DNA of 30,031 nt, taken from a virus. How positions within the stretch are numbered: position 1 is the stretch's first letter; each line of letters begins with the position of its first letter. Under the pieces are notes generated by a model, which was not told where the DNA came from, searched no databases, and saw only the letters and a program-made list of their open reading frames with translations. The stretch is taken from positions 1 through 30,031 of the IMG/VR virus record IMGVR_UViG_3300009001_002103. The stretch is one strand, 5' to 3'. Positions 10,164 through 26,283 of this stretch are shown here, in pieces. Position numbers and translations under genes: made by a program.

Positions 10164-12648
10164 GCAGATACGATAAATATATTAAATAACAGGATTTATA
10201 AGAATGGCAAATAGATTTCCACTAATACTAGACACAACAGATGGTAATAAAATTAAAGAATTGCCAGACGGAGATAATCTTGATTTAACTAACAGTAGCA
10301 TAACAAGTGTTAACGATATTACATCAGCTGGTACAATAAGCACACAAGAACTTCTTGTTAGAGGTAATACTGTTGCTCCTGTTGAATTTTCTGATCTAGT
10401 AGACACTCCAGACAATTTTACAGGCTCTGCAAATTATTTTGTAAAAGTTAATGCGGCAGGCACCGGCATAGAATTTAGACCGTTGAGCGATATTGGTAAT
10501 ATCGATGTTGAAGGTATTAATATAAGTGGTGATATTATTCCTACTGATAACGGATCGCAAAATATAGGAAGTGACGATTTTAAATTTAATAAAATTAGAG
10601 TTCAGCAATTAGCCGGTAATCTTGTTGATACAACCGGAAGTGTTGTTTTTGATTATGATACAGGTAAAATAACTTATGCAGCACTACAAGGCGCTCCTCA
10701 ATTTTTATCTGAATTTACAGACGATGTTGGATATTTAAGAACTGCTGATTTAGATGACACTCTAGGTACGTTATTCGGTTCAGAACCTTTTGTTTCAGAT
10801 CTTAAAGGTAGTGTTGTTGCTGACGATTCTACCGTTATAATCGATGGAGTAGCAGGACTTGTTGTTGGTGATATACAAAACGATTTTACTCAATCTAATG
10901 AAATTGTTGTTGGTGACTTAACAGTTACAAATGTGGATGTTAACGGAACATTTGTTTTTAGTGGTGCTCAAGCAGTCGGATTAACCATTCAAGATAGTAT
11001 AACAGGTGTAGGTGGACTTGTACTAACAACTAATGGATCATTATTACAAGAACTTATTAACATTTCTCCAGCACTAGCAGACGGTGAAGTTAATATTGAT
11101 GCAAATAAAATTAGATTACTAGGTGATGTTTCAGAACCTATTACAGCTAGTGGCGGATTTGTAGGCGACCTTACTGGTTCTGTTGTATCGGATAACAGTA
11201 CAGTTATTATAGACGGCGTTGCCGGAAAAATTGTAGCACCAAATGTAACAGGTACAGCAACATTTGAAGATAATGTAATTGTTGTAGGAAACCTAACAGT
11301 ACAAGGTTCGACTACTAGTGTAGAAACAACTAATACAACCATCACTGATAATATTATTACACTTAATGATGGTGAAACTGGTGCAGGAGTATCATTAGGA
11401 ACAGCAGGAATTGAGATCGATCGTGGTACCAATCCTAACGTATCTTTTGTTTGGAGTGAAGCTGATAGTTATTTTACTACAGAAACAAATAATTTAAATG
11501 GGAACATTGTTTCTGCAACAACTCGTTTTGAAGGTGCGCTTACAGGTAATGTAACTGGCGATGTAACAGGTGACCTAACTGGTGATTCTGCAGGTACACA
11601 CACAGGACCTGTAGTAGGCATAGTGACAGGTTACTTGATTGGTGACATGACAGGTTCTGTATTTGCCGATGATAGTACAGTTATAGTAGATGCTGTTAAT
11701 AACTCTATAAATGCTACAACCGCAGATCTTCCAATTATAATTGGTGGACAAATCAATCCATCAGATGGCGGCACAATATCTTTGGGCGGATCGTTTGGCA
11801 GTGTAAGCTATAATGATAGTTCTGGTAATATACAAATTGCAACAACAGGTACAACTAGTATAATTGGTGCTGCTTCGGGTGCTATTAACATCGGAACAAG
11901 CACAAGTGGAACAGTAACTATCGGTAATGGTACTAACACTATAGATATTAATACTGGTTCAACTTTAGATTTATCAGGAGTTACAGTTACAGGCGCAACA
12001 TTTAATCTATCAGGTGATATCGACAACTCGGCTGAACTTGATATAGGTGGAACTAATGCTACTGCTGTTAATATTGGTAGGGCAGGAATTACAACAACAA
12101 TAAACGGTACTGTAAGTTTTGCAAGTGCTCTTATTGCAAATAATATTACAGCAGACGACAGTATACAAATTACAACAGCAGTTGGGTCTAATAATGCAAT
12201 TACAATTAGGCCTCAAGGTACTAATAATTCTATTAACTTAACTTCAGATACAATTAATATTAATGGAACTGTAGGTACTTCATTTACAGTAAATGGCGTC
12301 ATAACTGGTGACATTAAAGGTAGTATTTTTGCAGACGATTCAACATTACTTGTAGATAGTGTAAATGGGATTATACCTAAAGCAAATATACAAGATAGCA
12401 CTAATTGGGATACAGCACACGGATGGGGAGATCATGCAGGCGCTGGATATTTAACTAGTGTAGCATTTGGCGATCTTACGTCAACACCTTCAACGCTTGC
12501 AGGTTACGGTATTATCGATGCTGCAACATCAGCACAAGGTGCTCTTGCAGATAGTGCTTTACAAGAAGGCGACAAATTTGATGTGATAGGTTCTGTTTTT
12601 GCAGACGATTCAACTGTTCTTGTTGATGCACTAACTGGGACTATACCA
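9531..12648 (+). repeat. Seven dispersed coding repeats GSVFADDSTxLVD in two adjacent fiber genes
   Basis: Units of about 20 codons begin at 9531, 9831, 10807, 11176, 11653, 12319 and 12589. The consensus is GSVFADDSTVLVDxVxGxI. Nucleotide sequences have diverged while the protein pattern is kept, so these are old duplications under selection and not recent copies. Two of the units (9831 and 12319) continue into the same longer module, ending with WDTA-x2-WGDH-x3-GYLT, in both genes. Confidence 0.8.
10171..10179 (+). promoter_or_regulatory. Late promoter CGATAAATA before the 845-residue fiber gene
   Basis: CGATAAATA lies between the stop of the previous fiber gene and the ATG at 10204, ending 24 bases before that ATG. 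It is identical to the sites at 13486, 17598 and 18968 and differs from the T4 late consensus only in the first base of TATAAATA. Confidence 0.6.
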
Positions 12649-17597: not shown

Positions 17598-17606
17598 CGA
17601 TAAATA
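17598..17606 (+). promoter_or_regulatory. Late promoter CGATAAATA before the 193-residue tail protein
   Basis: CGATAAATA ends 18 bases before the ATG at 17625. The short leader contains AGAGGAAA as ribosome site. A TATAAT-like string at 17580-17585 lacks a -35 partner and is not called. Confidence 0.6.
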
Positions 17607-17624
17607 ATACAAAGAGGAAACATC

Positions 17625-18206
17625 ATGAGCAATATAGTAGCAACAACAATTGACGCAGCATATCCGGTAGCCGGGGTAGATAACGATACTCAAGGGTTTC
17701 GTGATAATTTCCAAATCATTAAAGATGGATTAACAACTGCCGCTACAGAAATTACTACACTAGAAGATAGCACTGCAAAACTAAATGCCGAGAATAACTT
17801 TAACGGTACACTTCTTACAAATGGCACACTTAATGCAAGCACCGAATCCTTTTCCTCTGTCGGTAATGTTTCATCAGAACAAGAAATTAGTTTTACTAAC
17901 GGAATGTATCAAAGTATTAGATTTGCTGAAGAAGCAGCCGGAACAACTATAAGTTTAACATTATCAAATTTCCCAGCAGATGGTGACAGGGTAGCCAAAT
18001 TTAGATTACAGTTTTTTGGTACAGAAGGTGAGCCTGTAACTGTAAATTTTTCAGCCCTAGGCGGAGCAACAATTTATAAATCTCCAAATTGGCCAGCAAA
18101 CTTTTTAGTAGACAGTCCAACTAATCCAATAATCGTAGACTTTTGGTCGTATGATGGCGGCAATTCTTATGTGTTTGGAGAATACTTAGGAAGGTTTGAA
18201 CCTTAA
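17625..18206 (+). CDS. Conserved tail-associated protein of marine T4-like phages
   Basis: The 193-residue protein begins MSNIVATTIDAAYPVAGVDN and continues DTQGFRDNFQIIKDGL, a start I recall from structural proteins of T4-like cyanophages. The GVDNDTQGFRDNFxxIKxxL stretch looks like a divergent form of the adaptor motif at the N-termini of the three fiber-like genes. The next 30 residues are likely helical, and the remainder is beta-rich with aromatic residues (PNWPANFLVD, DFWSYDGGNSYVFGEYLG), suggesting a compact globular C-terminal domain. It has its own late-type promoter. Its stop overlaps the next start by one base. A virion role is probable. Confidence 0.7.
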   Translation: MSNIVATTIDAAYPVAGVDNDTQGFRDNFQIIKDGLTTAATEITTLEDSTAKLNAENNFNGTLLTNGTLNASTESFSSVGNVSSEQEISFTNGMYQSIRFAEEAAGTTISLTLSNFPADGDRVAKFRLQFFGTEGEPVTVNFSALGGATIYKSPNWPANFLVDSPTNPIIVDFWSYDGGNSYVFGEYLGRFEP

Positions 18207-18451: not shown

Positions 18452-18973
18452 ATGCTTATGAAAACTGACGAACTAGGTATACCAAGATTCTCTAATCGTG
18501 ATCTTATCGATATGATTTATTCTGGCCAAACAGATAAAATTCATGTGGTTTTGTGTGAACCTACTGATGAAATAGAAAAATTCAATAGTGCAATGGAAGA
18601 ACAAGGTATGGGTCCATTGCAGAAATATATTCCACTAGATGTAGATCAAAAGACTTTTGACGGTGTATGTCAAGGTGAATGGTTTATGCCTGAAGAATAT
18701 AAGAACATGGACATATATTCATGGGTAGAACAAAGATGTCAAACACACAAAGAAGTTGATAGAATTGATGAAGAATTTATTGCGTATGAAGAAAAAGGTT
18801 TATTAGACTTATTACGCTATATGGTATATCTTGTAGACTTTATGCGTGAGAATGACATTGTATGGGGTGTAGGCAGAGGATCAAGTGTAGCAAGTTATGT
18901 ATTATACATAATAGGTGTACATAAAATAAATTCAATCCAGTTTGACCTGGATTGGCGAGAGTTTTTACGATAA
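18452..18973 (+). CDS. DnaE-like fragment: region of DNA polymerase III alpha ending before the catalytic aspartates
   Basis: In this 173-residue protein the last 70 residues align by eye with the end of the PHP-to-palm region of bacterial DnaE. MVYLVDFMRENDIVWGVGRG (124-143) followed by SSVASYVLYIIGVHKINSIQ and FDLDWREFL corresponds to the family pattern DF-x6-I-x-G-x-GRGS-x2-S-x3-Y-x2-GI-x2-(I/L)-P-x3-DL-x3-FL. In DnaE the catalytic PDxDxD motif follows directly after that FL. Here the frame stops one residue later, so the protein cannot polymerise. The N-terminal 100 residues are unlike anything I recognise. A second ATG at 18458 is an alternative start. The stop codon lies inside the late promoter of the next gene. 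It may be a domesticated DNA-binding or regulatory piece; I believe related short proteins exist in other marine T4-like phages. Confidence 0.65.
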   Translation: MLMKTDELGIPRFSNRDLIDMIYSGQTDKIHVVLCEPTDEIEKFNSAMEEQGMGPLQKYIPLDVDQKTFDGVCQGEWFMPEEYKNMDIYSWVEQRCQTHKEVDRIDEEFIAYEEKGLLDLLRYMVYLVDFMRENDIVWGVGRGSSVASYVLYIIGVHKINSIQFDLDWREFLR

Positions 18974-18976
18974 ATA
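18968..18976 (+). promoter_or_regulatory. Late promoter CGATAAATA overlapping the end of the DnaE-like gene
   Basis: CGATAAATA supplies the last codon (CGA) and stop (TAA, 18971-18973) of the upstream gene and ends 27 bases before the ATG at 19004. A TAGGAGAAGG ribosome site follows in the leader. Confidence 0.6.
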
Positions 18977-19003
18977 TATACGTATATAATAGGAGAAGGC
19001 AAA

Positions 19004-19411: not shown

Positions 19412-19815
19412 TGTCTCAAAACATTAATAGTATTAAAGGAACTCCAAAAGCAATTGGTGATAGAGTTTTAGTAACTGATATGTATTTTGGTGAGCAAACT
19501 ACTAAGGGTGGAATAATTTTAGGCAACGATGACGGTAAAACTAGAGGAATTTATCCACGTTGGGCAAAAATATATTCTAAAGGACCTAGAAATAGAGATC
19601 CTTATGAAGTTGGAGAATGGATTCTTATAGAACACGGTCGCTGGACACGTAGTATTAAATTAGAAACAGAAGAAGGTGAAATAGAAATACGTATGGTAGA
19701 AACTGAAAGTATTTTAGCATACTCGGATGAAAAACCCGAAAGTGTTCAAATTGGCGCAGAATATAGTGACGGTGAACATGCAACTATAGATCCTTCAGCT
19801 TTTGTGAGTCAGTAA
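19411..19815 (+). CDS. groES: GroES/Cpn10-like co-chaperonin (functional counterpart of T4 gp31)
   Basis: Over residues 10-100 of this 134-residue protein the Cpn10 pattern is visible: PKAIGDRVLVTDMYFGEQTT followed by KGGIIL, with the mobile loop then SKGPRNRDPYEVGEWIL and a C-terminal strand MVETESILAY. The KGGIIL hydrophobic tripeptide corresponds to the GroEL-contacting part of the GroES mobile loop. Co-chaperonins cap GroEL in the cytoplasm; T4 gp31 replaces host GroES so that the large major capsid protein can fold. The protein is longer than host GroES (about 95) owing to an insertion around residues 35-55 and a 25-residue acidic C-terminal extension. It overlaps both neighbours by one base and is likely transcribed from the late promoter at 18968. 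Confidence 0.82.
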   Translation: MSQNINSIKGTPKAIGDRVLVTDMYFGEQTTKGGIILGNDDGKTRGIYPRWAKIYSKGPRNRDPYEVGEWILIEHGRWTRSIKLETEEGEIEIRMVETESILAYSDEKPESVQIGAEYSDGEHATIDPSAFVSQ

Positions 19816-20165
19816 TGAATCCATTTAAAGATATTGACACGTTTCAAACAGCGTGTGATCAAGAGCCATCAGAAGCAAACTATAAAATGTATCTTGATTT
19901 GATCCGTGAAGAAACAGATGAACTAGAAGAAGCTATCCTAGATAACGACAAAGTAGAACAGTTAGACGCACTAGTAGATATTCTTGTTGTTACCATGGGT
20001 GCTATTCGTGCCGCAGGTTGGGACGGGGAAGGTGCATGGAAAGAAGTAATGGACACAAACTTTGCAAAGATCGATCCAGACACAGGCAAGGTACGCAAAC
20101 GTGAAGATGGCAAAGTTCTAAAGCCAGAAGGCTGGCAACCCCCTAAGTTAGATAAATTTATATAA
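19815..20165 (+). CDS. mazG: MazG-like nucleotide pyrophosphohydrolase
   Basis: This 116-residue all-alpha NTP-pyrophosphatase-type protein has the metal-binding signature Glu32-Glu33-x2-Glu36, followed by Glu48-x2-Asp51 and Asp55 on the next helix (EETDELEEAI and EQLDALVDILVV). The family hydrolyses NTPs or dNTPs to NMP and pyrophosphate. Phage MazG proteins are widespread in marine T4-like and T7-like phages and have been proposed to act on (d)NTP pools or on host stress signals. The C-terminal 40 residues (FAKIDPDTGKVRKREDGKVL) match the usual single-domain phage/HisE-like form. Its ATG overlaps the groES stop by one base (TAATG). It is the last gene before the promoter/hairpin element and so ends the late-reading unit. 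Confidence 0.85.
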   Translation: MNPFKDIDTFQTACDQEPSEANYKMYLDLIREETDELEEAILDNDKVEQLDALVDILVVTMGAIRAAGWDGEGAWKEVMDTNFAKIDPDTGKVRKREDGKVLKPEGWQPPKLDKFI

Positions 20166-20172
20166 AAACTAC

Positions 20173-20201
20173 TTGACTCCTTAGCATTTATACGTTATAA
20201 T
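20173..20201 (+). promoter_or_regulatory. Sigma-70-type promoter (TTGACT-17-TATAAT)
   Basis: TTGACT at 20173-20178 and TATAAT at 20196-20201 are separated by exactly 17 bases. This is the best match to a bacterial housekeeping promoter that I found in the window. Transcription would begin near 20208. It is placed to drive the packed operon from 20225 to 26283 and suggests early expression by host RNA polymerase. Confidence 0.75.
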
Positions 20202-20220
20202 ATGTATAAAGCTAAGGAGT
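20176..20220 (+). promoter_or_regulatory. Long inverted repeat overlapping promoter and ribosome binding site
   Basis: ACTCCTTAGC (20176-20185) pairs with GCTAAGGAGT (20211-20220), and TTTATAC (20187-20193) with GTATAAA (20204-20210). That gives 17 Watson-Crick pairs with a single unpaired A (20186) and a 10-base loop holding the -10 box. The right arm contains AAGGAG (20214-20219), the ribosome binding site of the ATG at 20225, five bases away. It is followed by TTT, so in read-through RNA it could also terminate. A transcript begun at the embedded promoter would lack the left arm and expose the site. Confidence 0.75.
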
Positions 20221-20224
20221 TTTC

Positions 20225-20386
20225 ATGAAAATTACACCACAAACAGCAGGCGTAGGTACAACAGGACTTACAGGCATTGCATTAATGGCACTACATATCA
20301 CAGGATTCTTAACAGGATGGGCATGGCCTATTCTTTATGTATTCCTTATCATCTCAGGCATTGGACAAGAAAATAGGAAGGGCTAA
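20225..20386 (+). CDS. 53-residue membrane peptide, first gene of the early-type operon
   Basis: The ATG is preceded at optimal distance by AAGGAG. The peptide has two hydrophobic stretches, roughly residues 12-30 (TGLTGIALMALHITGFL) and 34-47 (WPILYVFLIISGIG), joined by GW(A)W. A charged end, QENRKG, follows. This looks like a small two-helix inner-membrane hairpin. No family is recognised. Placement directly behind the strongest promoter suggests abundant early production, as for small T4-type host-takeover or superinfection-exclusion proteins, but that is inference. A holin is less likely because the lysis genes are 8 kb away. The next gene starts two bases after the stop. Confidence 0.7.
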   Translation: MKITPQTAGVGTTGLTGIALMALHITGFLTGWAWPILYVFLIISGIGQENRKG

Positions 20387-20388
20387 CT

Positions 20389-20913
20389 ATGGCTACTCAC
20401 GGAATGATCGATTTAGAAACGCTGCATACTACACCTAAAGCAAGCGTTTTAACAGTAGGTGGTGTAAAATTTAATCCTTACGACAACTCTGAACCTCATA
20501 GTGAGTTTTATTTTAAATTAGAATTTGACAGTCAAGATAGAGATGTTAGCGAAGACACACTTGCTTGGTGGAGTAACCAAGATCCAAAAGCGCAAGAAGA
20601 AGCATTTGGAGAAGACGACAGAACACCCGTAATAGACTTTTTATATACATTGCCTAAATGGATAAATGGTGTTGATGTACTTTGGGGTCACGGTTATGGA
20701 TTTGATATTACTATTCTTGAAGACATGCTTAGACAAAACAAGAAAAATATTCCTTGGAACTTTTGGCAAGTACGAGATAGCCGCACACTTTTTAGCATGT
20801 GCAAAAGTGACCCTAGAAAAGGTATACAAAAAGATTTACACAACGCATTAGCTGATGCATACTTCCAAGCAAAAGGTGTGCAAATGGCCTATAAAGAATT
20901 AGGGTTATCTTAA
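20389..20913 (+). CDS. dexA: DEDDh 3'-5' exonuclease (DexA-like)
   Basis: The 174-residue protein has a complete DEDDh exonuclease set: Asp8 and Glu10 (MIDLETL, motif Exo I), Asp106 (GHGYGFDITIL, Exo II), and His151 with Asp156 (HNALADAYFQ, Exo III). The RNase H-like fold would bind two metal ions and remove nucleotides from 3' ends. The short single-domain form resembles T4 DexA and the related Rv2179c-type exoribonucleases. In T4 DexA degrades single-stranded DNA. It lies directly downstream of the membrane peptide and overlaps the next start by one base, inside an operon that also encodes the clamp loader subunit. The substrate, DNA or RNA, is not decided by sequence. Confidence 0.82.
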   Translation: MATHGMIDLETLHTTPKASVLTVGGVKFNPYDNSEPHSEFYFKLEFDSQDRDVSEDTLAWWSNQDPKAQEEAFGEDDRTPVIDFLYTLPKWINGVDVLWGHGYGFDITILEDMLRQNKKNIPWNFWQVRDSRTLFSMCKSDPRKGIQKDLHNALADAYFQAKGVQMAYKELGLS

Positions 20914-21794
20914 TGCAAAAACTTGATCACCAATTTAATGTTCAACTAGAACATAACAATCCTGTCTTTGAAGCAGTTGTAGGTAGTTACTTAACTGAAA
21001 CAAACAAAGAAAATAGTGATCGAGACAGTATACTTTTTTATTCACACAAAGTACAGATTAATCCTTTCTTCGCTTTTCCTAATAATGACGAAGTATTATC
21101 AATAACTTATGATAAAGGATTAATGCAAGAGCAAGCATCAGCAATACTTGCTAATTATGCTGCAATGCTACTTCGTCCTAAGTATTTAAAACAAAATGAA
21201 TTTTCACATGCTATTAAACATCTAGCAGCAATTAAGTTTGACAAAATTAGTATCACAAATCAAGAATTATTTTCTAAGTATTATGATTTTATTTGTGTTC
21301 CTGGCAATGGATTAAACTTTTGGCAGCAGGCACGGTTGTCTTATGAAAATTTTTGGAATTGTATTCCTAGTGTAGAATGCAATTGGAGTCAAAAATTTGA
21401 AGGTAGTAGCCAAGAACATGTCGACAAGAAAAATAATTGGAGTATGTATAATGATTACTATCCAACTGTTGACAGTAAGGTAGGCTATGATATAAATTAT
21501 GTTGTTTGGTTGCTAACAGATATGATTCTTATTAAACACATATTGTTTAATGATCATATCATTGATAAAGAAGAAGTTAATACTATAATGCGAATTAAAA
21601 ACAAAGATGTAAGTTGGGATGAAATTAAAACTATAAAAATTCAACTATGGAAAAATGCTCGTAAGGGATTAGAAAGTCCTATGTCTTCTTACCTGCTAGG
21701 TAGAGGAATGAGCTTACAAGAAGCACAACAAAAAAACCTTTTTGGACTACAAGGATTTTTGAACACTGTAAATAGTTTTGAGGAAAGCAAATGA
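20913..21794 (+). CDS. Unknown 293-residue protein between DexA and gp44
   Basis: I do not recognise this family. The protein is soluble-looking, rich in aromatic residues (FWQQARLSYENFWNCIPSVE) and probably largely helical in its second half. It has no Walker motif, no CxxC pair and no signal peptide. The C-terminus is LWKNARKGLESPMSSYLLGR followed by GMSLQEAQQKNLFGLQ. It overlaps dexA by one base and gp44 by four (ATGA), so translation is probably coupled to replication genes. The T4 small clamp-loader subunit gp62 is not obvious elsewhere in the window; this gene is in the wrong order (before gp44) and too long (T4 gp62 is about 187 residues), so I do not assign that role. Confidence 0.75.
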   Translation: MQKLDHQFNVQLEHNNPVFEAVVGSYLTETNKENSDRDSILFYSHKVQINPFFAFPNNDEVLSITYDKGLMQEQASAILANYAAMLLRPKYLKQNEFSHAIKHLAAIKFDKISITNQELFSKYYDFICVPGNGLNFWQQARLSYENFWNCIPSVECNWSQKFEGSSQEHVDKKNNWSMYNDYYPTVDSKVGYDINYVVWLLTDMILIKHILFNDHIIDKEEVNTIMRIKNKDVSWDEIKTIKIQLWKNARKGLESPMSSYLLGRGMSLQEAQQKNLFGLQGFLNTVNSFEESK

Positions 21795-22705
21795 AAGAAT
21801 TATGGGTAGAAAAGTATCGTCCTAAAACAGTAGATGGATATGTATTTAGAGATGAAGCACAAAAAAATCAAGTCAAAACATGGATCAAAGATAAAACTAT
21901 TCCGCACTTGCTTTTTAGTGGCAATGCTGGGATTGGTAAAACTACTCTTGCTAAGTTATTATTTAACGAGCTTGAAGTAAATGATCTAGACATTCTAGAG
22001 ATTAATGCATCGCGGACAAACTCAGTAGATGATGTGCGTGATAAAATTGTAAACTTTGTACAAATGATCCCATTTGGGGACTTTAAGGTTGTATTACTAG
22101 ATGAAGCAGATTACTTATCACCAAACGCTCAAGCAGCTCTCCGTGGGGTTATGGAGGAGTATCATACTACTGCTCGTTTCATTCTTACTTGTAACTATCC
22201 AAATCGTGTTATACCCGCTTTGCACAGTAGGTGTCAAGGTTTCCACATTGCTAAGATTGACCAAACTGAATTCACGGCTAGAGTTGCTGAAATTCTTATC
22301 AGCGAAGGTGTTACTCCTGATTTGGATACGCTTGATACATACGTAAAAGCAACATATCCAGACTTGCGTAAGTGTATCAACACTGTACAAATGAATTCAG
22401 TTGACGGTGTGTTGAACAAACCCAATGAAGGTGACACAGGCGAAAGCGACTGGAAACTTGATATGGTTGAGTTGTTTAAAGCAGGCAAAATTCAAGAAGC
22501 ACGTAAGCTACTATGTGGTGCTATTCGTCCAGAAGAAATGGAAGAAGTGTATCGTTGGTTGTACGACAACATTACACTGTTTGGTGAAGAAGAAAAACAA
22601 GACCAAGCAGTACTAACAATCAAACAAGGGATGGTTGATCACACACTAGTGGTTGACCCTGAGATTAACTTAGCGGCAACGCTTATTAGATTAGCGAGGT
22701 TATAG
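21791..22705 (+). CDS. 44: Sliding-clamp loader large subunit, gp44-like AAA+ ATPase
   Basis: This 304-residue clamp-loader ATPase opens with [15 protein letters not shown], typical of RFC/gp44 proteins. Walker A is GNAGIGKTT (residues 44-52), Walker B is VVLLDEAD (100-107), and the SRC motif carrying the trans-acting arginine finger is at 146-148. Sensor-type sequence [20 protein letters not shown] lies between. In T4, four gp44 and one gp62 load the gp45 clamp on primer ends. T4 gp44 is about 319 residues, so length fits. It overlaps the upstream unknown gene by four bases and the ferredoxin start by one. No gp62- or gp45-like gene adjoins, which differs from the T4 order 45-44-62. Confidence 0.92.
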
Positions 22706-23052
22706 TGACATATCTAGTAACAGAAAATTGTATAAAATGTAAACATACAGACTGTGTTGAAGTCTGTCCTGTAGACTGTTTTTACGAAGGTGAAAATTTT
22801 TTAGTAATTAATCCAAACGAATGCATAGATTGCGGAGTATGTGTTCCAGAATGTCCGATTGATGCAATTGTAGCTGACCACGAGTTAGAAGAACCTGAGC
22901 GAATAAAATGGATCGAAATAAATGAAAAATATTCAGACATTTGGCCTGTAATTACAGAATCAAAAGGTTCACTACCAGATGCAGTTGATTGGGAAGATGT
23001 AGAAGGAAAACTAGAAATGTTGTCACCGGAACCCGGAGAAGGAGACTTATAA
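22705..23052 (+). CDS. fdxA: Seven-iron ferredoxin (FdxA / Azotobacter FdI type)
   Basis: The 115-residue protein starts with GTG overlapping the gp44 stop by one base. Cysteines at 9, 12, 17, 21, 25, 40, 43, 46 and 50 follow the pattern of 7Fe ferredoxins carrying one [3Fe-4S] and one [4Fe-4S] cluster: [17 protein letters not shown], then [13 protein letters not shown]. The early part is nearly the same as Azotobacter FdI as I remember it. The C-terminal extension typical of that family is also kept ([20 protein letters not shown] then EGKLEML). Such proteins carry low-potential electrons in the cytoplasm. It is not the plant-type [2Fe-2S] ferredoxin found in some cyanophages. It may feed reductases or replace a host ferredoxin; partner unknown. 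The phage IscA homologue could help to mature it. Confidence 0.9.
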
Positions 23053-23541
23053 TTGATTAGAGCAATCTTAGCTTGTGATGACACAGGCGGCGTAAGCAAA
23101 GATGGTACACTACCGTGGCCTAACAATTCAACAGACTTAAAATGGTTTAAGGAAAATACAGCAGGACATATTGTTGTAATGGGGTCTACTACTTGGGACG
23201 ATCCCCATATGCCTCGTCCCTTACCAAATAGACAAAATGTACTTGTAACTACTCGTTCCAATGAATATACAGGCGCCCATGATTATATTAACGGTGATCT
23301 TAAACATCAAATAGGATTATACGCAGATAACAATCCAGGTTTAATTACTTGGATTATTGGTGGCCCGAACATTATCGAACAAACACTAGGCATTATTGAT
23401 GAATTTTATCTAAGCCGTATTCCAGGTGAATACGATTGTGATACTTTCTTACCTTTAGGAAAAATTGCTACATTGTTTGAACTAGACTGGGAAGAAAAAC
23501 ACCCAGAAGTAACATTTCAAATTTGGAAAAAACGTAAATGA
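23053..23541 (+). CDS. frd: Dihydrofolate reductase
   Basis: The 162-residue protein starts with TTG (23053) directly after the ferredoxin stop, supported by AGAAGGAGA upstream and by alignment of MIRAILACDDTGGVSKDGTL to family N-termini. The DHFR landmarks are LPWPNN, the active-site acid Asp28 (STDLKWFKENT), VVMGSTTWDD, RPLPNRQNVLVTT and WIIGGPNI, the last binding NADPH. The enzyme reduces dihydrofolate, which thymidylate synthase produces, to tetrahydrofolate. Its stop overlaps thyA by four bases (ATGA), matching the common phage DHFR-ThyA pair (T4 frd-td). The rare TTG start may limit its dose relative to ThyA. Confidence 0.9.
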   Translation: MIRAILACDDTGGVSKDGTLPWPNNSTDLKWFKENTAGHIVVMGSTTWDDPHMPRPLPNRQNVLVTTRSNEYTGAHDYINGDLKHQIGLYADNNPGLITWIIGGPNIIEQTLGIIDEFYLSRIPGEYDCDTFLPLGKIATLFELDWEEKHPEVTFQIWKKRK

Positions 23542-24404
23542 AACAATATCTTGACGCATTAGAACACATATTAGAAAACGGCAAGGATCGTAATGATAGA
23601 ACAGGTGTAGGAACACGTGGTGTTTTTGGCTATCAAATGCGTTTTGATTTGCGCAAAGGATTTCCTGCTGTTACAACTAAAAAACTTGCTTGGCGTAGTG
23701 TAGTAAGTGAACTACTTTGGATGCTAGAAGGATCTAGTGATGAACGCAGACTAGCAGAAATACATTATGGTAAGCCTAGAGAAGAACTTGTAGGTAAAAC
23801 TACTATTTGGACTGCTAACGCAGATGCACAAGGTAAAGATTTAGGATACATTAACGACGATACTACTAAAGACCTAGGTCCTGTATATGGTCATCAATGG
23901 CGCAAGTGGGATGCACAACTTGGTTTTGTTGATCAGATTGCAGAAGTACTAGAAAATATGTATTACAACCCAGAAAGTCGTAGACATATTGTAAGTGCTT
24001 GGAATGCAGATCGTGTAAATGTAATGGCTTTACCGCCTTGTCATACATTATTCCAATTTCATATACAAGACGGAGAACTAAGTTGTCAATTGTATCAACG
24101 TAGTGCAGATATGTTTTTAGGTGTTCCTTTTAATATTGCTAGTTACAGTCTACTTACTCACATGTTTGCACAACTATTAAATCTTAAGGTTGGTGATTTC
24201 GTATGGACAGGTGGTGATTGTCATATTTATCAAAATCATATGGAACAAGTTAAAGAGCAAATTACTAGACAACCTAGAGAATTACCAGAATTATTAATGC
24301 CCCAGTTTGCTAATTTAGAAGAATTAGTAAACACAAAACCTACTGATTATGAATTAATTAGATATGATCCTATGGATAGTATCAAAGCACCGATGGCGGT
24401 ATAA
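23538..24404 (+). CDS. thyA: Thymidylate synthase (ThyA)
   Basis: This 288-residue ThyA-family enzyme methylates dUMP to dTMP with methylene-tetrahydrofolate. The catalytic cysteine is Cys168 in LPPCHTLFQF. The substrate-binding sequence QLYQRSADMFLGVPFNIASY follows, and the N-terminal phosphate-binding DRTGVGTRG is present. HIYQNHMEQ near the C-terminus and the APMAV end, which closes the active site, are also typical. The length equals T4 Td (286) and there is no intron, unlike T4 td. It is coupled to DHFR by a four-base overlap. With dCMP deaminase at 25846 it forms a complete dCMP to dUMP to dTMP route. Confidence 0.95.
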   Translation: MKQYLDALEHILENGKDRNDRTGVGTRGVFGYQMRFDLRKGFPAVTTKKLAWRSVVSELLWMLEGSSDERRLAEIHYGKPREELVGKTTIWTANADAQGKDLGYINDDTTKDLGPVYGHQWRKWDAQLGFVDQIAEVLENMYYNPESRRHIVSAWNADRVNVMALPPCHTLFQFHIQDGELSCQLYQRSADMFLGVPFNIASYSLLTHMFAQLLNLKVGDFVWTGGDCHIYQNHMEQVKEQITRQPRELPELLMPQFANLEELVNTKPTDYELIRYDPMDSIKAPMAV

Positions 24405-24405
24405 T

Positions 24406-24624
24406 ATGTTTAATAATGACGAAGATTATGAACTACAAAAAGAAGCAAAAGAAGTTGCTCGTAAAACAATGCAAATGGATGATTGGGAACGTTATGTAGA
24501 AGGTGCAGCATTTAAAATTTTGAAACTTGAAAGAGAGGTACAGCGTCTCAAGTATAATTTTTATCTTGCAGCATTCTTACTTTTTGGTTTGCCTATTATA
24601 TTAGCAGTACTAGGCATTAGATGA
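24406..24624 (+). CDS. Small single-pass membrane protein
   Basis: I choose the ATG at 24406, one base after the thyA stop, rather than any in-frame start inside thyA, giving 72 residues. The first 45 residues are charged and helical (DEDYELQKEAKEVARKTMQM). One membrane segment follows near the C-terminus (NFYLAAFLLFGLPIILAVLG), ending in IR. The order suggests a C-terminally anchored protein with its bulk in the cytoplasm. No family recognised. It overlaps the next gene by four bases. A role bringing phage enzymes to the membrane is possible but unsupported. Confidence 0.7.
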   Translation: MFNNDEDYELQKEAKEVARKTMQMDDWERYVEGAAFKILKLEREVQRLKYNFYLAAFLLFGLPIILAVLGIR

Positions 24625-24863
24625 AACATATAAGTGCATACTTTGATCAAGTAGAAACTGCACATGAAAAGTTTGCGTGGTGGCCTGTACGCAGCAGTTT
24701 TAGTAAAAAGCTAATATGGTTTAAAAAATATGTGCTGCTTGAAATTACATATGACGATATGGGACGTCCTCCAATTAAAGGACGTAGCTGGAACTTAATA
24801 TATACTCAACACGAGTATCTTCTATATTTGTTAAAGAAAGGAAAAAATGGGGAGAATTACTGA
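24621..24863 (+). CDS. Unknown 80-residue basic aromatic protein
   Basis: The start overlaps the membrane-protein stop by four bases (ATGA). The protein is rich in aromatic and basic residues (HEKFAWWPVRSSFSKKLIWF) and has YDDMGRPPIKGRSWNLIYT in the middle. No membrane span, metal motif or known domain is seen. It overlaps the next gene by 17 bases. Gene packing supports it as real; function unknown. Confidence 0.65.
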   Translation: MKHISAYFDQVETAHEKFAWWPVRSSFSKKLIWFKKYVLLEITYDDMGRPPIKGRSWNLIYTQHEYLLYLLKKGKNGENY

Positions 24864-25104
24864 TCCTTATTCAGGAAAACAAAAGTTTTTTAAAGGGAAA
24901 GGTCGTAAAGGAAATAAAAAATTAGACGAGTATCAAAAAACTTTATTACAACAAGAACACAATAACAAATTAGAAGAAGCTGGTAAGCTCAACCAAACAA
25001 GGCAAAAACCGTTAAAAGGTAAAGCACTAAAAGAATACCAAGTAAAAATGAAAGCACTAAAGATGCAACGCTATTACGGAATACAACCAAAGAATAAACA
25101 GTAA
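24847..25104 (+). CDS. Unknown 85-residue highly basic protein
   Basis: The ATG at 24847 is preceded by AAAGAAAGGAAAAA inside the upstream gene. About a third of the residues are Lys or Arg (GKQKFFKGKGRKGNKKLDEY), with a helical C-terminal half (KGKALKEYQVKMKALKMQRY). The composition suggests binding to nucleic acid, but no defined motif is visible. Its stop overlaps the SGNH gene start by one base. Confidence 0.65.
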   Translation: MGRITDPYSGKQKFFKGKGRKGNKKLDEYQKTLLQQEHNNKLEEAGKLNQTRQKPLKGKALKEYQVKMKALKMQRYYGIQPKNKQ

Positions 25105-25856
25105 TGGAAGATCGTTATACACTTAATTATGATCCTAACAATCTCTTATTAGTCTTAGGTGACAGCTGGTCATGGGGAGATAGTTTAAAAAATCGAATTC
25201 AAGACACCTATGCATCTATACTAGCAAAAAAACTAGATTTTAGTCTTATTAATAATAGTGTATGTGGTTGTAGTAATTTCGATATGCTAGATCGATTGAG
25301 TCAAGAATTAAAAAATATTGATGCAAAAAAATATAATAAAATTATTATTATTCTTGGATTAACTGAAACAGGCAGAGAGTGGCACAGATATCAAATTCTA
25401 ACAAACGACATTGATAATAAGTTTAAAATGATTGAACAAAGCACAGTTGATCGTATAGATTTTTTATCAAAATTACTTCCAAATAATGTTCAACTTATTG
25501 TTAGTAGAAATTTTACAAATTTTTATCCAGAAACAACTTTACATAATAATAAATTTTTTACTCGTAAAATTTGGTGTGAAATAATATCACAAAAATGTAA
25601 AGTTGAATGGCCTATAACGTATGGTCCTATTAGTGGCTGTGTTTTTGAACCTATGCTTTCTCGTTATAAAAATGATGCTAGTTTTAAATCTTGGTTTTCT
25701 GAAAAAATAGACCTTGCACAAAAAACTTGGGATTGGTTAGACAACAGTCCTTATAATTATAAAAAGTTCACTAAACATCCAACCGAAGAAGGTCATGTTT
25801 TATGGGCAGAGTATTTGTTGCTTTTGATAAAGGAATTTAAGTTAAATGAAAAGTAA
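25104..25856 (+). CDS. SGNH/GDSL-hydrolase-like protein
   Basis: The 250-residue protein has block I of the SGNH family, LLLVLGDSWSWGDSL, with the candidate nucleophile Ser21. A block II-like NNSVCGCSN and a block III-like IIILGLTETG follow. Near the C-terminus KHPTEEGHVLWAEYLL resembles block V, with His225 as candidate base. The Asp normally three residues before that His is replaced by Phe222, so a Ser-His dyad would be needed or activity is lost. Family members remove acyl or acetyl groups from sugars, lipids or peptides. It lacks a signal peptide and so acts inside the cell. It overlaps dCMP deaminase by 11 bases in an operon otherwise devoted to nucleotides. The substrate is unknown. 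Confidence 0.65.
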   Translation: MEDRYTLNYDPNNLLLVLGDSWSWGDSLKNRIQDTYASILAKKLDFSLINNSVCGCSNFDMLDRLSQELKNIDAKKYNKIIIILGLTETGREWHRYQILTNDIDNKFKMIEQSTVDRIDFLSKLLPNNVQLIVSRNFTNFYPETTLHNNKFFTRKIWCEIISQKCKVEWPITYGPISGCVFEPMLSRYKNDASFKSWFSEKIDLAQKTWDWLDNSPYNYKKFTKHPTEEGHVLWAEYLLLLIKEFKLNEK

Positions 25857-26283
25857 GTTTATAAATGCATATATGGACGTTGCTGAACGTTTTGCACAAC
25901 TAAGTTCAGCAAAGCGTTTACAAGTAGGTGCGATTGTTGTAAAGGATGATCGCATTATCAGTATTGGCTACAATGGTATGCCTAGTGGATGGGATAATTG
26001 CTGTGAAGAATGGGATGGTGAGGATGAATGGGGGAACACCATTACTAAAAGTAAAAAGGAAGTGCTTCATGCAGAATCAAATACGATTGCTAAACTTGCC
26101 CGATCTTCTGAAAGTGGTGAAGGGGCAACTATTTTTATTACACACGCACCTTGCATAGATTGTGCTAAACTAATCTATCAAAGCGGAATAGCCACTGTGT
26201 ACTACAAAAATGAATATCGTAGTACACAGGGCATAGATTTTCTTAAAAAGTCAGGTGTTGTTATTCATCACCATAAACTTTAA
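25846..26283 (+). CDS. cd: dCMP deaminase
   Basis: This 145-residue deoxycytidylate deaminase makes dUMP for ThyA. The zinc and catalytic motif is His75-Ala-Glu77 (VLHAESNTI) with Cys103 and Cys106 (PCIDCAKL). GYNGMPSGWDNCCE near residue 40-55 is the family's substrate-binding/allosteric-site region. The N-terminal MDVAERFAQLSSAKRLQVGA is also typical. It begins within the last codons of the SGNH gene and ends the plus-strand operon. Its 3' end overlaps the convergent phoH gene by 23 bases, and I see no terminator between them. Together with DHFR and ThyA it supports dTTP supply during replication. Confidence 0.93.
   Translation: MKSKFINAYMDVAERFAQLSSAKRLQVGAIVVKDDRIISIGYNGMPSGWDNCCEEWDGEDEWGNTITKSKKEVLHAESNTIAKLARSSESGEGATIFITHAPCIDCAKLIYQSGIATVYYKNEYRSTQGIDFLKKSGVVIHHHKL

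Follow-up and report, generated by a model that had tools for sequence, protein, structure and literature searches.

A sigma-70 promoter, a stable hairpin and a ribosome site that share the same bases probably form, with roughly three chances in four, an insulated starting point, at which read-through RNA is silenced, for an early operon set among late genes. The element lies in a 30-kb viral record of a marine, T4-like giant phage lineage, analysed as one stretch of 30,031 nucleotides (the window), whose clamp loader has PA5oct and Atu_ph07 as nearest named relatives. The evidence was computed and comprises the hairpin, its covariation, a sense-strand bias in the pairing, enrichment of a U-run, co-directional upstream genes and a promoter map. 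It seems reasonably probable that the element represents a recurrent module of about 50 bases, found both in marine T4-like giant phages and in phages of other groups, in which terminator, sigma-70 promoter and ribosome site are fused, the anti-Shine-Dalgarno (anti-SD) sequence lies in the -35 region and the -10 box serves as the loop; such a module would act opposite to the T4 lysozyme switch, shielding early operons within late regions against late read-through.

The element and its predicted fold

All parts of the element lie on the + strand. The -35 box TTGACT (20173-20178) and the -10 box TATAAT (20196-20201) are separated by 17 nt and agree with the sigma-70 consensus in 11 of their 12 bases. 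RNAfold returns a single hairpin at 20175-20221, whose left (5') arm (20175-20195, also recovered by covariation) pairs through 20175-20185 and 20187-20195, around a bulged A20186, with the right (3') arm (20202-20221), leaving the -10 box as the loop. This hairpin has 20 pairs, two of them G-U, a free energy of -25.4 kcal/mol and a z of -6.3, with none of 200 dinucleotide shuffles folding as well. The minimum-free-energy fold that the original prediction had called for is hence a stable one, formed around the proposed promoter, and the inverted repeat of 17 pairs and a 10-base loop described there is its Watson-Crick core. The final bases of the -35 box open the anti-SD sequence (ACTCCT), of which CTCCT (20177-20181) lies in the left arm, while the Shine-Dalgarno sequence (SD) AGGAG (20215-20219), serving the ATG at 20225, lies in the right arm, as does the predicted transcription start at 20208, placed 7 nt beyond the end of the -10 box. 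A terminator-like U-run stands at the foot of the stem; the T-run expected there is present, but consists only of TTTT (20220-20223) followed by C.

Against 0.00 expected occurrences, the window contains the pattern TTGACTCCT-N-TATAAT-N-AGGAG once, and Rfam gives no match anywhere in the window. Among the consensus promoters scanned in related genomes, the orthologues of the element form the strongest hairpins (z -8.0 and -6.6, followed by -5.6, -3.8 and -3.6).

Gene context and promoter classes

Upstream lies a MazG/PRA-PH-like pyrophosphohydrolase gene (19815-20165, + strand), whose stop codon is 7 nt upstream of the -35 box, so that mazG RNA runs into the hairpin; more generally, a same-strand reading frame ends upstream of 80 of 86 elements, mostly within 40 nt. 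Downstream, on the same strand, the early block opens with a gene for a 53-aa hydrophobic protein (20225-20386), which has no match in PHROG, in Pfam or by tblastn against named phages, and continues with a 3'-5' exonuclease gene (Rv2179c-like, 20389-20913), which directly follows the element in many relatives, and with genes for a 293-aa protein, the clamp loader, dihydrofolate reductase, thymidylate synthase and dCMP deaminase (20913-26283). No tRNAs occur in the window.

Two words show the strongest strand bias between the genes of two related genomes: ATAAATA, which is also the upstream 7-mer with the highest enrichment (46 occurrences against 7 on the opposite strand), and TTGACAA (27 against 1); judged by motif, the former are T4-type late promoters and the latter early promoters. 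Late motifs of the form GATAAATA occur in the window at 10172, 13487, 17599, 18969 and 27122, 26-35 nt ahead of gene starts. The one at 18969-18977 (GATAAATAT, + strand), 35 nt upstream of a 135-aa gene, heads a gene run that begins with that gene and ends in the mazG-like gene; it is the late promoter closest upstream of the element, and its RNA would enter the element directly. No GATAAATA motif occurs on the + strand of the window from the element to 27122, and in the two related genomes the promoter order around the element is LLLL[E]LL. The promoter map thus supports the proposed switch between transcription classes.

Distribution among relatives

A total of 160 related loci was obtained from protein-based searches with exonuclease and MazG neighbours. 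The pattern given above was found in at least 119 stretches; pooled over all loci, 93 distinct sequences match it, and about 90 distinct relatives in viral contigs have the same architecture. In a slightly relaxed search, GGAG pairs with the -35 region in 92 of 98 folds. One of the two large groups is the window's own lineage, where the element precedes the 53-aa gene or stands directly before the exonuclease; contigs G001, G005, G006 and G007 of this lineage carry the exact element in one copy each, among 8-15 consensus promoters. The other consists of phages with a cyanophage-like MazG gene after a tail-fibre-type gene (L180:2384-2434, L163, L185, L194, L219, L229 and similar loci), in which the element ends in ...AGGAGTTTTTTATG and the same architecture is apparently independent of the window's lineage. 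Further elements precede dUTPase-like or other genes.

Scanning of the partly syntenic stretches of Atu_ph07 (L305) and PA5oct (L304) for hairpin-embedded consensus promoters yielded no equivalent, and the four mazG loci inspected from cyanophages or marine viruses (L300-L303) likewise lacked one. Across 257 Gb of bacterial genomes there were only three exact matches with TTTT, two of them with a clear hairpin. Two copies in metagenome-assembled bacterial genomes (L347:5292-5340 and L348:5620-5675) show the architecture upstream of a metallophosphoesterase-like gene and of an Rrf2-like gene, as identified by eye, hinting at convergent use beyond phages.

Relatives that keep the promoter and ribosome site without the left arm, which the original prediction had named as contrary evidence, do exist (L034, L044, L047, L048, L062 and L120), and the hairpin is therefore common rather than universal. 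In L028, L034, L044, L047 and L048, however, the upstream reading frame extends 4-26 nt beyond the start of the -35 box, so that in most of the hairpin-less relatives checked ribosomes would disrupt a left arm; L062 is the exception, being hairpin-less though its upstream gene does not overlap the promoter. Upstream of the exonuclease operon in L017, L040, L042 and L030, the promoter position is the same but the hairpin around it is spelled very differently (e.g., ACCCTCTGTG/CACAGAGGGT), and in some cases the arm has a weak SD or none.

Selection on the pairing

Because the exact-pattern search fixes the outer five pairs, the arm re-pairing test was restricted to inner pairs, and there, subject to the relatedness among sequences that inflates all pairing and covariation counts given here, 286 of 370 cells are paired, against a mean of 163 and a maximum of 197 in 2000 re-pairings of arms between elements. 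Across the 18-pair helix of 15 ungapped distinct elements, standard pairs fill 93.7% of cells versus 80.6% after shuffling, percentages raised by the fixed pairs, which are invariant and add nothing to covariation. In the same elements, double changes affect 8 pairs and 27 cells, compared with 7.2 after shuffling, and the covariation score is 0.380, compared with 0.130 for shuffled and at most 0.088 for slid controls, a result with which RNAalifold agrees. The compensatory changes in both arms that were to be sought where TATAAT is kept are thus strongly in evidence.

When scored alike, G-U cells outnumber A-C cells by 135 to 39; in the 40 in-register elements the numbers are 47 and 8, as against 88 and 58 when arms are re-paired. 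Because a G-U pair appears as A-C when the opposite strand is read, this excess points to sense RNA and not to a DNA operator. Pairing that is kept in relatives while its letters change is maintained by selection, and this selection, as read from the aligned sequences, acts on pairing in the sense-strand RNA.

Accessibility of the ribosome site and proposed mechanism

The predicted cost of opening AGGAG in the window is 12.6 kcal/mol in read-through RNA versus about 3.0 kcal/mol in RNA begun at about 20208, with medians over 92 elements of 13.2 and 2.1 kcal/mol, respectively, which lends computational support to the proposal that the site is blocked on read-through RNA. In the two related genomes, the predicted SD opening of the element (11.8-12.2 kcal/mol) is higher than at any other of the early promoters listed, the majority of them having 0-2.9 kcal/mol; the second-highest value, 6.6 kcal/mol, belongs to G5:28801, an isolated early promoter in late territory. 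That SD occlusion goes with early promoters in late territory is only suggestive, because an opening energy of 6.2 kcal/mol is also seen at G7:10625, whose neighbours are early promoters, and little occlusion at G7:30700 and G5:158663, which have late promoters on either side.

In the mechanism that we propose, the promoter would start RNA near 20208, within the right arm, and this RNA, having no left arm, would form no hairpin and would leave AGGAG free to serve the 53-aa gene and the operon downstream of it. RNA arriving from upstream, such as that from 18969 via mazG, would carry both arms, fold and hide the SD, and would probably be terminated in part at the U-run. Translation of the early genes would then rely mainly on RNA from their own promoter instead of on late read-through. 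The start site, termination, loss of translation and biological benefit are what we infer; covariation, promoter map and U-run enrichment, all read from sequence, largely favour the overall model of insulator, promoter and translation switch in one element.

U-run and termination

At least four T occur in the five bases after GGAG in 68% of elements, compared with 1.3% of 617 control SD-ATG sites from those loci; the control sites are A-rich. Termination at the T-run, as originally suggested, is better founded for this enrichment, and many copies of the element are probably also intrinsic terminators. Measured against an intrinsic terminator, taken as a stable stem with some 6 or more U immediately behind it, the window's element has the stable stem and a U-run of 4; the cyanophage-like-MazG group has a U-run of 6-7, its elements being mostly followed by T5-T7. 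Several hairpin lineages have no U-run (GGAGATCTC; L201, L260); termination therefore cannot be general, and SD occlusion is the constant, with termination a frequent addition. In E. coli, a terminator just past the stop codon of a translated gene works inefficiently (PMC4824070), which argues for SD occlusion as a back-up.

Of the 28 exonuclease genes with a hairpin element immediately ahead of them, 25 start with TTG, which lengthens the T-run (TTTTCTTTTG), and those without the hairpin nearly always start with ATG, an association that may come partly from shared ancestry. The hairpin-less homologous promoter sites (L034, L044, L047, L062, L120) are of CGGAGTA type, without a T-run.

Alternative explanations

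The element may possibly, though we hold this to be doubtful, be mainly an intrinsic terminator of the upstream late transcript, fused in a space-saving manner with promoter and ribosome site, with SD occlusion as a by-product. The U-run enrichment and the TTG starts of hairpin-preceded exonuclease genes speak for this explanation, as do classical terminators with longer T-runs in the same genomes and the hairpins that include a -35 box at G5:150697 and in PA5oct (L304:1758). It sits less well with the U-run of only 4 in the window, with the lineages whose hairpin has no U-run while SD pairing stays constant, and with the weakness of stop-codon-proximal terminators in E. coli (PMC4824070). Translational coupling, in which the ribosome finishing mazG would open the hairpin and re-initiate downstream, fits upstream stop codons that usually fall 2-24 nt before the -35 box; we nevertheless consider it unlikely, given that these distances vary widely, to about 76 nt and beyond, that the SD lies some 50 nt past the mazG stop and that the element has a promoter of its own.

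Cleavage by RNase III or another nuclease, turning read-through RNA into translatable downstream mRNA, appears slightly less probable still. A stem of about 20 pairs, such as the element has, is a plausible RNase III substrate, but cleavage would leave both the promoter within the hairpin and the U-run unexplained, and across groups only pairing, promoter and SD are conserved. The least probable explanation, and a very unlikely one, is the operator on which, as the original prediction also allowed, a dimeric repressor would bind the dyad and block the promoter: the dyad does overlap the -35 and -10 boxes, and TTTATAC/GTATAAA is fairly conserved inside one clade, but arm letters change in compensatory fashion, the arms are entirely different in other phage groups, and the G-U excess over A-C is a signature of sense-strand RNA. 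Half-site letters were not found conserved across relatives, and with the covariation and the G-U bias this led us to reject the operator.

Comparison with known systems

According to two sources (PMC3014915; PMC2988022), T4 e, soc, 49 and I-TevI (also segB, and mobE of Aeh1) have SD-sequestering hairpins with a promoter in or beside the 5' arm, and in the T4 genes this inner promoter is late (TATAAATA) and early or middle read-through is silenced. The T4 hairpins of e, soc, 49 and I-TevI resemble the element in that read-through RNA hides the SD and an adjacent inner promoter yields RNA without the 5' strand. In the element, likewise, the 3' arm of the stable hairpin contains the paired SD, the predicted start at 20208 in the right arm would by sequence leave its own RNA without the 5' arm, and the pairing is kept by selection in relatives. 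However, it contains no T4 late promoter (TATAAATA) but TTGACT-17-TATAAT, a sigma-70 promoter of early type, with GATAAATA as the late motif here, so that late read-through would be silenced; moreover, its anti-SD overlaps the -35 box, the -10 box forms its loop and the stem is often followed by a U-run. By analogy, the element would work like the T4 hairpins without their late promoter and with opposite temporal polarity.

The transposase genes of IS10 and IS50 are protected from outside transcription by fold-back RNA, and there too the RNA from the gene's own promoter is translated while incoming RNA folds over the ribosome site. Those hairpins, unlike the element, which shows no transposon features, derive from a terminal inverted repeat and guard against transposition. 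With intrinsic (Rho-independent) terminators the element shares a stem directly followed by a U-run right after a stop codon; it differs from them in that its 3' arm is a ribosome binding site, its loop is a -10 box and its U-run is short, as it must fit between SD and start codon. Within a limited coverage of the open literature, we found no paper describing such a fusion of promoter, terminator and ribosome site.

Further hairpin-promoter fusions and implications

Other fusions occur as well. A second orthologous hairpin-promoter-ribosome-site element precedes a 142/147-aa gene in L287 (G007 near 125517, minus strand) and in L293 near 17600-17660 (G005:117645), with the compensatory change CTCCTGC/GCAGGAG versus CCCTGC/GCAGGG and TTTT after the stem. 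Near 15603-15631 of L286 (G007, minus strand), an early promoter lies within a long hairpin (z -5.6) that pairs the SD region and ATG of a 155-aa gene, and L306:196-260 (G001:15776) holds a hairpin-embedded early promoter, ACTCCTATGGTTA/TAACTATAGGAGT then ATTTTTATG, whose anti-SD is in the spacer and not in the -35 box. A different kind of hairpin-promoter fusion is seen in L295 near 10697 (G005:150697), L304:1758 (PA5oct) and L327:201, where the -35 box TTGACA is inside a hairpin, two of these hairpins being terminator-like.

If the proposed reading is true, a position downstream of late genes need not imply late expression of a gene, even where late RNA spans it. The element would be a short, insulated expression start and would offer a means of recognising the boundaries of early operons from the sequence of uncultured giant phages. 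Hairpins that silence read-through would then serve phages in either temporal direction, and a single pairing constraint could govern bases common to promoter, terminator and ribosome site.
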